This document shows positions 19,394 to 58,057 of a DNA stretch of 64,000 nt, in pieces. The notes beneath the pieces are model-generated. The model was not told where the DNA came from. It searched no databases and saw only the letters and a list, made by a program, of their open reading frames with translations. The translations under genes and the position numbers were made by a program. Position 1 is the first letter of the stretch; each line of letters opens with the position of its first letter. Source of the DNA: Pyrofollis japonicus (GTDB lineage: Archaea > Thermoproteota > Thermoprotei_A > Sulfolobales > Pyrodictiaceae); NCBI RefSeq assembly GCF_033097485.1, contig NZ_AP028634.1, positions 1,417,126-1,481,125 on the forward strand, given 5' to 3'.

Positions 19394-22500
<3,107 letters not shown>

Positions 22501-41051: not shown

Positions 41052-41795
41052 TTGAGCACGTTCGATAGACGCGTAAAAATAGTCTATGAAAAGCTTAGGG
41101 CTAAGGCAGAGACTATAAGCAATGATACTATCAGGAGACTCGTGCTTGAACTCCTAACAGAGCCCGTGATAACGTTTACAAAGGTTGAGCCAAAGATAAG
41201 CTTCTTTGAAAGCCCTGCCGCGCCCAAGAAGCACCATGCTTACCCCGGGGGACTCCTAGACCATACTCTCGGTGTTACGGAGATAGCCGAGAAGCTAATG
41301 GATGTCTATAGCAACATATATGGTGCTAAAATCGATAGGAATATAGTTGTTGCCGCAGCTCTGCTACACGACTTATTTAAGTATTATCAGTACGAGAGGG
41401 ATCCATTGACTGGCGGATATAGGCCTCGTTCTGATTGGTACTTTAGCCACGACTTTGCAATGGTTGCTGAGCTTAGTGTACGTGGAGCCCCTGAGCGCTT
41501 GATAAGAGCCGTAGCAGAGGTTCACGGCACGGTTCCTTTCACAATGATAGAGTCACAGATAGTTCACCAGGCCGATTCGACAGATTCTGAGATGATCGCT
41601 AAGATACAAGACATAATATGGAGAGTCTGTATGGATATAGAGATAGAGATACCGGAGACAAAGGCGATAAAGGTATTCAATGAGGCTCTTAAACGGTTGC
41701 CGATATTTGAGTATGCGCGAATATACTATAGTGAAGGCAGAGACGCGCTGCGCGAGTACATAAAGAAGCTATTAGGACTTGAGACTAAGTCCTAG
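41052..41795 (+). CDS. HD-domain phosphohydrolase/nuclease
   Basis: A 247-residue metal-dependent HD protein. Metal ligands are visible in HHAYPGGLLDHTLGV (about 60-75), AALLHDLFKYYQY with the HD pair (about 105), and FSHDFAMVAE plus VAEVHGTVPF further on. This order resembles the HD domain of YhaM-type 3'-5' exoribonucleases, here without an OB domain. The exact substrate is unknown. The start is TTG 41052. It is followed by the small-RNA interval. Confidence 0.8.
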   Translation: MSTFDRRVKIVYEKLRAKAETISNDTIRRLVLELLTEPVITFTKVEPKISFFESPAAPKKHHAYPGGLLDHTLGVTEIAEKLMDVYSNIYGAKIDRNIVVAAALLHDLFKYYQYERDPLTGGYRPRSDWYFSHDFAMVAELSVRGAPERLIRAVAEVHGTVPFTMIESQIVHQADSTDSEMIAKIQDIIWRVCMDIEIEIPETKAIKVFNEALKRLPIFEYARIYYSEGRDALREYIKKLLGLETKS

Positions 41796-41829
41796 AACAT
41801 GCTGAGATGAGGAGGCCGACATAAACCTA

Positions 41830-41850
41830 CACCCCTGGAGCCAAGGGGTG
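41830..41850. other. Perfect hairpin, start of small-RNA interval
   Basis: CACCCCT and AGGGGTG enclose the loop GGAGCCA. It lies 35 bp after the HD gene. It could be a terminator or part of an unrecognised RNA. Confidence 0.4.
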
Positions 41851-41970
41851 GATGAAGAAGGGTCGATTTGCCGAGGAGATGCATAGCAAGTTCATGTAGA
41901 TAACGACTTTAAGTATCTTAGCATTCGTTGATTATAATGTGGCTGTGCTTGGCTTGTCCAATCCATGTCT

Positions 41971-42043
41971 TTTGCCGATGAAGACCCGTCGGACGTAGAC
42001 GAGCATATGCGATGAGATGTCCCCTGGCTCCTCTGAGGCAGAA
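41971..42043 (+). ncRNA. Candidate C/D box sRNA (plus strand)
   Basis: A box-C-like CGATGA (41976-41981), internal GAGATGT (42014-42020), a 12-base guide, and box D CTGA (42033-42036). TGCC before box C and GGCA after box D can form the terminal stem. A TATA-like ATTATAAT at about 41930-41937 would start the transcript near 41960. The D' box is unclear (CGGA or ACGA), so confidence is moderate. Confidence 0.45.
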
Positions 42044-42075
42044 ATCGTTGCAGTGGCAAATGATATACTTGGAAA

Positions 42076-42134
42076 CGCTCAGACGGGTCCAGCTACATCA
42101 TGTCTTCAGTTGACCGATAACCGTCATCATAGCC
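42076..42134 (-). ncRNA. C/D box guide sRNA targeting 23S rRNA
   Basis: On the minus strand: box C TGATGA (42124-42129), guide, D' CTGA, four-base spacer, C' ATGATGT (42095-42101), 12-base guide (42083-42094), box D CTGA (42079-42082). GCT before C and AGC after D can pair. The second guide pairs with the 23S segment at 19940-19950 over 11 contiguous positions including one G-U, directly next to box D; by the fifth-nucleotide rule it would methylate the G at 19946. Nop5 and fibrillarin, the protein partners, are encoded at 53-55 kb. Confidence 0.7.
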
Positions 42135-42206
42135 GTGATGATTAGCAAACCATCAGACTCGGAAAAGGGATGAAGAAGAGCTCTCTCTCTGAGCCCTTTT
42201 GCATCA
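42131..42206 (+). ncRNA. Possible second C/D sRNA, divergent
   Basis: GTGATGA (42135-42141), a 12-base guide, CAGA as D', GGATGAA as C' and CTGA as D near 42198. AAAAGGG and CCCTTTT also form a stem around the second half. No rRNA target was found and no promoter is evident, so this may be chance. Confidence 0.3.
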
Positions 42207-43271
42207 TTAGAGAAGAGCTTTTAGCACCCTAGCGACAGATAGTGGCATCTTTGTGATAATTCGTAATGTTTTCTTAAGGTTAAGTTCTCCCAACCCTATT
42301 GCAGTAAACACGTCAAGCGGTATAGACTCTAGTACTGCTGCTCGTGTTTTAGGAGACACGGCCTTTACTCTATCTAGTAGCTTTCTTTGCCTCGATATCC
42401 ACTCTATTATGTTTGATATCACTGAGACTCTATCCACGCCCTTATCTATGCTCTGAAACAAAGCATATGATGAAGCAACGCTTGGCCTAATTCCCTCACC
42501 TGTTAAGGGATAAACGAATCCTGCTGCTTCTCCTACTACGGGGCTTCTTTCTCTCATGAAGAGTTCTTTATTCACATTTGATGCAATAATCCTTGCTCCC
42601 TTAATGGCAGAGGATTTCTCTGCTTTCACTGATCTAAGATACTCTCTCGTAAAGACTTCAAGCCTATAAACAAGTTTATCAAACGATTCAAGCCCCCCAA
42701 CACCTATATCAACGACACGTTCACCTCTAGGAAACACCCAATAGTATCCGATTAGGTTCTCGTCAAACCAGAACTCTATTGTATTCACGTCGTCTAAAGG
42801 CTCTTTGAGCTCGAGGATGCGTTGTACTGCATTTATTACTTCAACTCCATTTTTATGAATGTATCCATACGCACCTATAGAGCCTACAGCTATTATCGTC
42901 TCCTCGCGAGGATCTACACCGATAGGTGATAAATCTTCGCGAAGACGTACAGGTTTTCGTATGAACTCCGAAGACGAAATTAAGTATTTCAGGAACCCCG
43001 GTTTATTGATAATGTAGCCCCAATGTCCTCCACTATGTTCTTTTATGAGTTGGTTGTTTAGATATATACGAAAGCCTTTTATCTCTGTTAATATAAACTC
43101 CTTTGGGATTTTTATGAAATGTTCTATCGAGCCAGGTACCGCCCAGCCGCATGGCTTTGAGCCAGGTTCGTGAATGTCGTAGACTATGACTTTGTAGCCC
43201 TTGTTTGAAGCGTAAAACGCAAAGGAGGCACCTGCTGGGCCTGAACCTACAACTGTGAAATCGTGCCTCAT
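42207..43271 (-). CDS. Geranylgeranyl reductase family flavoprotein
   Basis: An FAD enzyme of 354 residues that saturates the isoprenoid chains of archaeal lipids. The N-terminal FAD loop is VVGSGPAGASFAFYA, the substrate motif PCGWAVPG lies near residue 41, YYWVFPRGERVVDIGVGG near 175, and GEAAGFVYPLTGEGIRPS near 245 is the second FAD motif. It is adjacent to GGPP synthase (67 bp apart), which fits a lipid operon. The length is shorter than typical 390-450 residue members. Confidence 0.88.
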   Translation of the reverse strand: MRHDFTVVGSGPAGASFAFYASNKGYKVIVYDIHEPGSKPCGWAVPGSIEHFIKIPKEFILTEIKGFRIYLNNQLIKEHSGGHWGYIINKPGFLKYLISSSEFIRKPVRLREDLSPIGVDPREETIIAVGSIGAYGYIHKNGVEVINAVQRILELKEPLDDVNTIEFWFDENLIGYYWVFPRGERVVDIGVGGLESFDKLVYRLEVFTREYLRSVKAEKSSAIKGARIIASNVNKELFMRERSPVVGEAAGFVYPLTGEGIRPSVASSYALFQSIDKGVDRVSVISNIIEWISRQRKLLDRVKAVSPKTRAAVLESIPLDVFTAIGLGELNLKKTLRIITKMPLSVARVLKALL

Positions 43272-57997: not shown

Positions 57998-58057
57998 AAT
58001 ATCAGCCCCCAGCGCCTCTTCACGACTAGTCTGCGTCGTCTAGCCTCATCATCCATG
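57998..58057 (-). ncRNA. Candidate C/D box sRNA (minus strand)
   Basis: Minus strand order: ATGATGA (58046-58052), 12-base guide, CAGA as D', six bases, GTGAAGA as C', 11-base guide, CTGA (58002-58005). Box spacing is close to ideal. A partial match (10 of 11 with two G-U) exists to 23S at 20644-20654, too weak to call. It lies between aspS and ahbD, antisense to the intergenic region. Confidence 0.5.

Follow-up and report, generated by a model that had tools for sequence, protein, structure and literature searches.

A conserved cluster of four predicted C/D box sRNA genes between two convergent archaeal genes

What occupies the short gap between two convergent protein-coding genes in which an initial annotation had seen a cluster of small RNAs? 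The gap lies in the window, by which we mean the whole 64-kb stretch of DNA that was analysed, from a genome that consists of one contig of 2,005,174 bases with archaeal 16S, 23S and RNase P genes. It comprises 411 bases (41796-42206) between the stop of an HD-domain protein gene (41795) and the stop of a geranylgeranyl reductase family gene (42207), and contains four C/D box sRNA genes in the order E1 (+), E2 (+), E3 (-), E4 (+) (Table 1). Judged from sequence, the four very probably form a compact C/D box sRNA cluster at convergent gene 3' ends, and their products would be rRNA methylation guides. The small-RNA cluster claimed earlier was therefore real and understated: the proposed plus-strand C/D candidate with a terminal stem is E2, the minus-strand C/D RNA is E3, and the possible fourth element is the full C/D sRNA E4. 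The two C boxes that had been noticed facing away from each other (TCATCA-TAGCCG-TGATGA, 42124-42141) belong to E3 and E4, with six bases between the hexamers.

Searching 39 genomes with the HD-domain protein recovered it in 18, the window's own included, and the order from HD gene to reductase gene is kept in 11 loci (L002-L010, L012 and L015, counting that of the window). These syntenic loci represent three genera: g1, to which the window belongs (4 genomes), g2 (4 genomes) and g8 (3 genomes). E1, E2, E3 and E4 are all present, in the same order, in 11/11 syntenic gaps, and this comparison with relatives, which the initial annotation had proposed as a check on its cluster, thus bears out the conservation of the other elements. 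In alignments of the 11 loci the boxes and guides are near-invariant, and the spacers are variable.

The consensus of C/D box RNAs is RUGAUGA for the C box and CUGA for the D box. The C, D, C' and D' boxes are strict in E3 and E4, and variants in E1 and E2; those of E1 relatives are canonical. A strict C-D'-C'-D pattern has three matches in the 64 kb of the window, E3 and E4 in the gap and one elsewhere, whereas 40 dinucleotide shuffles gave 0.025 per 64-kb window on average. These counts, the conserved boxes and guides, and a complementarity to rRNA that exceeds shuffled controls (below) together support the reading of the gap as a C/D sRNA cluster. An Rfam scan of the gap returned no family at its gathering score; E1, E3 and E4 have sub-threshold matches, mostly to archaeal sR families.

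Table 1. Features of the gap and its neighbours and the predicted rRNA target of E1 and E4, in window positions; minus-strand boxes and guides are given 5' to 3'
Feature	Positions	Strand	Remarks
HD-domain protein gene (Pfam HD)	41052-41795	+	neighbour upstream, convergent with the reductase gene; used as synteny anchor
E1 C/D box sRNA (predicted)	41807-41874	+	conserved in 11/11 syntenic loci
E1 C box	41807-41813	+	ATGAGGA
E1 D' guide	41814-41825	+	GGCCGACATAAA
E1 D' box	41826-41829	+	CCTA
E1 hairpin	41830-41850	+	stem CACCCCT/AGGGGTG, between D' and C'
E1 C' box	41852-41858	+	ATGAAGA
E1 D guide	41859-41870	+	AGGGTCGATTTG
E1 D box	41871-41874	+	CCGA
E2 C/D box sRNA (predicted)	41974-42039	+	conserved in 11/11 loci
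E2 terminal stem	41974-41976 / 42037-42039	+	GCC/GGC
E2 C box	41978-41984	+	ATGAAGA
E2 D' box	41999-42002	+	NNGA
E2 D guide	ends 42032	+	ending in TGTCCCCTGGCTCCT
E2 D box	42033-42036	+	CTGA; limits of C' unsure
E3 C/D box sRNA (predicted)	42079-42130	-	conserved in 11/11 loci
E3 C box	42130-42124	-	ATGATGA
E3 D' guide	42123-42110	-	CGGTTATCGGTCAA
E3 D' box	42109-42106	-	CTGA
E3 C' box	42101-42095	-	ATGATGT
E3 D guide	42094-42083	-	AGCTGGACCCGT
E3 D box	42082-42079	-	CTGA
E4 C/D box sRNA (predicted)	42135-42192	+	conserved in 11/11 loci
E4 C box	42135-42141	+	GTGATGA
E4 D' guide	42142-42153	+	TTAGCAAACCAT
E4 D' box	42154-42157	+	CAGA
E4 C' box	42170-42176	+	ATGAAGA
E4 D guide	42177-42188	+	AGAGCTCTCTCT
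E4 D box	42189-42192	+	CTGA
Geranylgeranyl reductase family gene (Pfam GGR_cat)	42207-43271	-	convergent neighbour
Predicted E1 and E4 target stretch in the 23S gene	19801-19844	-	23S 2658-2701, 44 nt

The anatomy of E1 and E4 was read from distant relatives with canonical boxes, for example ATGATGA-(12 nt)-CAGA...GTGATGA-(12 nt)-CTGA. E1 has degenerate D' and D boxes in the window (CCTA and CCGA); its relatives across the order have canonical boxes in the same register (for example CGGA or CAGA for D' and CTGA for D), and the 12-nt register of the guides is unchanged in far relatives. The perfect 7-bp hairpin reported as an element of its own does exist, but it is an internal stem of E1. Its closing pairs 1-4 covary in 19 hand-chosen sequences, in which pair 1 is CG in 13, GC, TA and AT in one each and broken in three, and pair 2 is AT in nine, CG in nine and broken in one.

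We scored each guide set against the 16S and 23S rRNAs of the window. Both guides of E1 and of E4, and the D guides of E2 and of E3, are complementary to rRNA with a standard pair at nucleotide five from the box. In 16S and 23S together, each of the four E1 and E4 guide sets has its best mean site within 23S 2640-2715. Here the E4 D guide (GAGCTCTC) fits 2658-2665, the E1 D guide (GGGTCGAT, or GGGGTCGAT in some) 2668-2675, the E4 D' guide (TAGCAAACC) 2679-2687 and the E1 D' guide (GCCGACAT) 2693-2700, so that the two RNAs alternate along a target that we take to be helix 89 and the following peptidyl-transferase segment. In this order the fifth-nucleotide rule predicts methylation at positions equivalent to E. 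coli A2469, U2479, U2491 and U2504, the first two of which are partners in a base pair of the local fold. E4 would bind both sides of helix 89 and E1 its upper 3' side and the next segment, at sites that are near each other in sequence.

In column shuffles, which used 9, 7, 6 and 7 representative rows, the observed score was reached within 2640-2715, a stretch picked after the target scan, 0 times per 1,000 for E1-D, 0 for E4-D, 0 for E4-D' and 4 for E1-D'; anywhere in the rRNAs it was reached 17, 49, 0 and 64 times, respectively. The best site of E4-D' scores 24.3, compared with 16.0 for the next. For E1-D we keep 23S 1888-1898 (site 1892) as a rival to helix 89 (site 2669). It scores slightly better in the window species (24.0 versus 21); in genome G014 the two tie at 24. 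Counted into the D box, the rival match comprises 16 bases (23S 1883-1898). The part of the E1 D guide that is invariant in the 11 loci (GGGTCGAT) forms only Watson-Crick pairs at helix 89, and it is the varying part that extends the match to the rival.

One compensatory change is seen between E4 and its predicted target: genome G007 has GAGAGCCC in the rRNA and GGGCTCTC in the E4 guide, in place of GAGAGCTC and GAGCTCTC of the window. The changed guide is shared by G012, a member of the G007 genus whose rRNA was not found. Helix 89 also reads GAGAGCCC in G022, G041 and G059, yet no matching guide accompanies it there. We therefore reject covariation between guide and helix 89 as a general proof of the target; the helix could be read in 11/32 genomes with one pattern and in 6/26 with another. 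The 23S record of G017 (L024; G017:C100) was left out of the target conclusions. It has 67.5% identity to the 23S of the window, compared with 94-99% for the other archaeal rows, fits the guides badly and is probably a foreign contig or contamination, despite the assignment of the genome to the same family. In G013, the 23S gene is found only in separate pieces (L026, L028 and L144; G013:C1:896435-896833), a pattern that an intron or insertion would produce.

The targets predicted for E2 and E3 lie elsewhere. The E3 D guide fits 23S 2552-2562 in domain V, with a predicted site at about E. coli G2365 and a score of 27.9 compared with 19.3 for the next site in the 16S and 23S of the window. The E3 D' guide differs between genera, and its fit to 23S 520-529 in the window is absent from g2 and g8. 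The E2 D guide fits 16S 725-734, with a predicted site at E. coli G769, on the rRNAs of g1 and g2 and, for g8, on the 16S of the window, which served for scoring there; a single other stretch outscores it in g1 and g2. The target scan gave no convincing rRNA site for the E2 D' guide. The motif ACCCGTC occurs in both E2 and E3 of the window and had been taken as a trace of duplicated guides. It is kept in 5/11 E2 rows and 3/11 E3 rows, and the guides match different places in rRNA. We therefore reject duplication: the motif is a chance overlap, unconserved in either RNA, between guides with different targets.

Beyond the syntenic loci, the order as a whole yields matches to E4 in 85/197 genomes and to E1 in 79/197, although the weakest of these may be other C/D RNAs; the best E1 matches carry the same guides. 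Within the family, 16/20 genomes have both E1 and E4, clustered in 11 of the 16, and E3 is found in 15/20. Both RNAs also occur in 28 genomes outside the family, eight times on one contig at a distance of at least 280 kb and 20 times on different contigs; in none of these 28 are they neighbours. This dispersal indicates that the E1 and E4 guides are older than the cluster. Genome G118 has two E4-like genes (L125 and L126) that differ in their D guides, one with GAGCTCTC and one with GGGCTCTC; this may be a duplication, which would widen the target.

Within the cluster, the order of the elements is fixed and their strand is not. E4 is on the plus strand in g1 (4/4), whereas the g2 and g8 loci all have it on the minus strand (7/7); E3 is on the minus strand in 10/11 loci and on the plus strand in one (L010 in G017). 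Model searches give one E4, one E3 and one E1 match per cluster genome, which indicates that the flipped genes are not second copies. In a tree of the HD protein, g1 forms one branch (89/98) and the cluster-bearing species group together (81/90). The four g1 genomes are separate assemblies, making misassembly an unlikely cause of the E4 flip; the E3 flip comes from one draft genome. E4 has a terminal GGC/GCC stem in g2 and g8 that is absent from its flanks in g1, and such a stem would be a natural inverted-repeat breakpoint for the flip. None of the papers listed by our limited literature search describes a C/D sRNA gene that has changed strand.

TATA-like boxes no more than 55 nt upstream are present in 0/11 loci for E3, 0/11 for E4, 2/11 for E2 and 5/11 for E1. 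According to a review, most archaeal C/D sRNAs lack promoters and need only their boxes for maturation. The RNAs of the gap are probably made from read-through transcripts and not from promoters of their own, E1, E2 and E4 being cut from read-through of the HD gene on the plus strand and E3 from read-through of the reductase gene on the minus strand. A gene that turned round would then merely swap its parent transcript, and single genes could flip in place and stay in use. Each RNA would fold through its C/D and C'/D' boxes into an archaeal sRNP with L7Ae, Nop5 and fibrillarin, a guide would pair with rRNA, and 2'-O-methylation would fall on the rRNA base that faces guide nucleotide five, counted from the D or D' box. 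E1 and E4 would in this way lay four alternating guides on helix 89 and the next peptidyl-transferase segment, while the D guides of E3 and E2 would act on 23S domain V and on 16S. For all four RNAs, we infer expression, read-through, sRNP assembly and methylation. Our tentative proposal, which we see as possible rather than probable, is that the convergent gap is a strand-neutral nursery for sRNA genes: both strands are read through and boxes suffice, so E4 in one genus and E3 in another lineage could flip without loss of function, and the ancient E1 and E4, far apart elsewhere, were brought together as a single module, their guides taking turns along helix 89 and the peptidyl-transferase segment. 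Sister genera that have one gene on opposite strands provide a natural experiment on whether archaeal sRNAs need promoters.

The strands of E3 and E4 might instead result from copying to the other strand followed by loss of the first copy, a route to which we give somewhat less than an even chance. Duplication of sRNAs and mobilisation of modules are described for archaea in excerpts of PMC4644070, and two copies of E4 are present in G118. The single E4, E3 and E1 matches in cluster genomes and the identical order of elements in 11/11 loci favour inversion, but weakly, because the end products of both routes look alike. A separate question is whether the E1/E4 pair would mainly be a folding chaperone that holds both arms of helix 89 and the next segment, keeps 23S 2660-2672 from forming a competing hairpin with 2690-2702, and lets go of the strands once they are methylated, which we consider unlikely from the modelled folds. 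At 37 °C, both the segment on its own and a 374-nt piece of domain V prefer the competing hairpin, with pair probabilities of about 1 for it and about 0 for native helix 89, and three of the four E1 and E4 guides cover the arms of this hairpin. Chaperoning by two guides has already been proposed for archaeal sRNAs (PMC4644070, in excerpt), and the excerpted text of PMC8536713 terms the yeast box C/D RNA snR190 a folding chaperone, with a releasing helicase, Dbp7, that crosslinks to helix 89. At 90 °C, however, the competing hairpin has a probability of about 0.03 and the native pairs one of about 0.2; G007 is without the competing hairpin even at 37 °C; and E. coli shares much of it (0.35 versus 0.65 for the native form) without any guide. 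The folds at 90 °C and G007 thus weaken the competing hairpin as the reason for the guides. The alternation of E1 and E4 guides makes the choice between chaperoning and methylation addressable at one helix.

Two further alternatives concern the nature of the gap itself. In the window, E1 and E2 have degenerate boxes, and of the four RNAs the strict pattern matches E3 and E4 only, as would be the case if E3, perhaps with E4, were the sole working RNA and E1 and E2 were decaying copies. Long stretches of E1 and E2 are invariant over three genera, however, and the recurrence of E1 across the order with the same guides in its best matches also makes decay very improbable. ORFs of 42 and 55 codons overlap the gap, which might on that account be an untranslated or coding region conserved for another cause, such as an overlooked small protein; but spacer indels ignore the reading frame, and conserved C/D boxes and rRNA-matching guides keep one register, so that we give this explanation almost no credence.

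As predicted guides of rRNA methylation, E1-E4 are, as far as their primary structure can place them, archaeal C/D box sRNAs of a known kind. The locus stands out through the genes that changed strand in place and through the two RNAs whose guides alternate on helix 89. Dennis et al. 2015 (PMC4644070) and Breuer et al. 2021 (PMC7994747) describe archaeal C/D box sRNAs that likewise have C, D', C' and D boxes and guides of about 12 nt, direct two guides to nearby rRNA sites under the fifth-nucleotide rule, and lie in gene clusters with few promoters. A review of archaeal C/D sRNAs mentions clusters of two or three, whereas here four genes share one gap on both strands. Unlike the archaeal C/D sRNAs described, single genes lie on opposite strands in related genera, and four guides of two RNAs alternate on one rRNA stretch of 44 nt; the term 'helix 89' is absent from the archaeal sRNA papers found in our literature search. 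The system of yeast snR190 and Dbp7 (PMC8536713, in excerpt) also involves a box C/D RNA, which pairs with large-subunit rRNA domains I and V. It is eukaryotic and non-methylating and shows no sign of homology to E1 or E4, so that the likeness is one of analogy only.

The best Rfam match of E4 is sR17 (RF01144), with 25.2 bits in the window and 28.1-31.5 bits in three relatives. The D guide of the sR17 model ends in CUCGCA before CUGA, as some E4 relatives end in CTCGCA before CTGA, and could occupy the same register on helix 89 as the E4 D guide. The D' guide is different, and we reject the identification of E4 as sR17, as it scores at most 31.5 bits everywhere against a gathering score of 36. 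A scan for a helix-89 variant matching sR17, with a pattern that was partly guessed, gave three stretches, none archaeal by title.

The locus is thus a conserved set of four C/D sRNA genes missed by Rfam cut-offs, with concrete predicted methylation sites at the catalytic centre of the ribosome. Elsewhere in the window, the third strict C-D'-C'-D match (ATGATGA ... CTGA; 58002-58052, minus strand) marks a further C/D sRNA candidate. Three g2 loci (L006, L007 and L009) have in common the sequence GGAAACCTCTATACCC(C)TGG, conserved upstream of E1 and no more than about 80 bases past the HD stop; it is perhaps a promoter or a fifth RNA.
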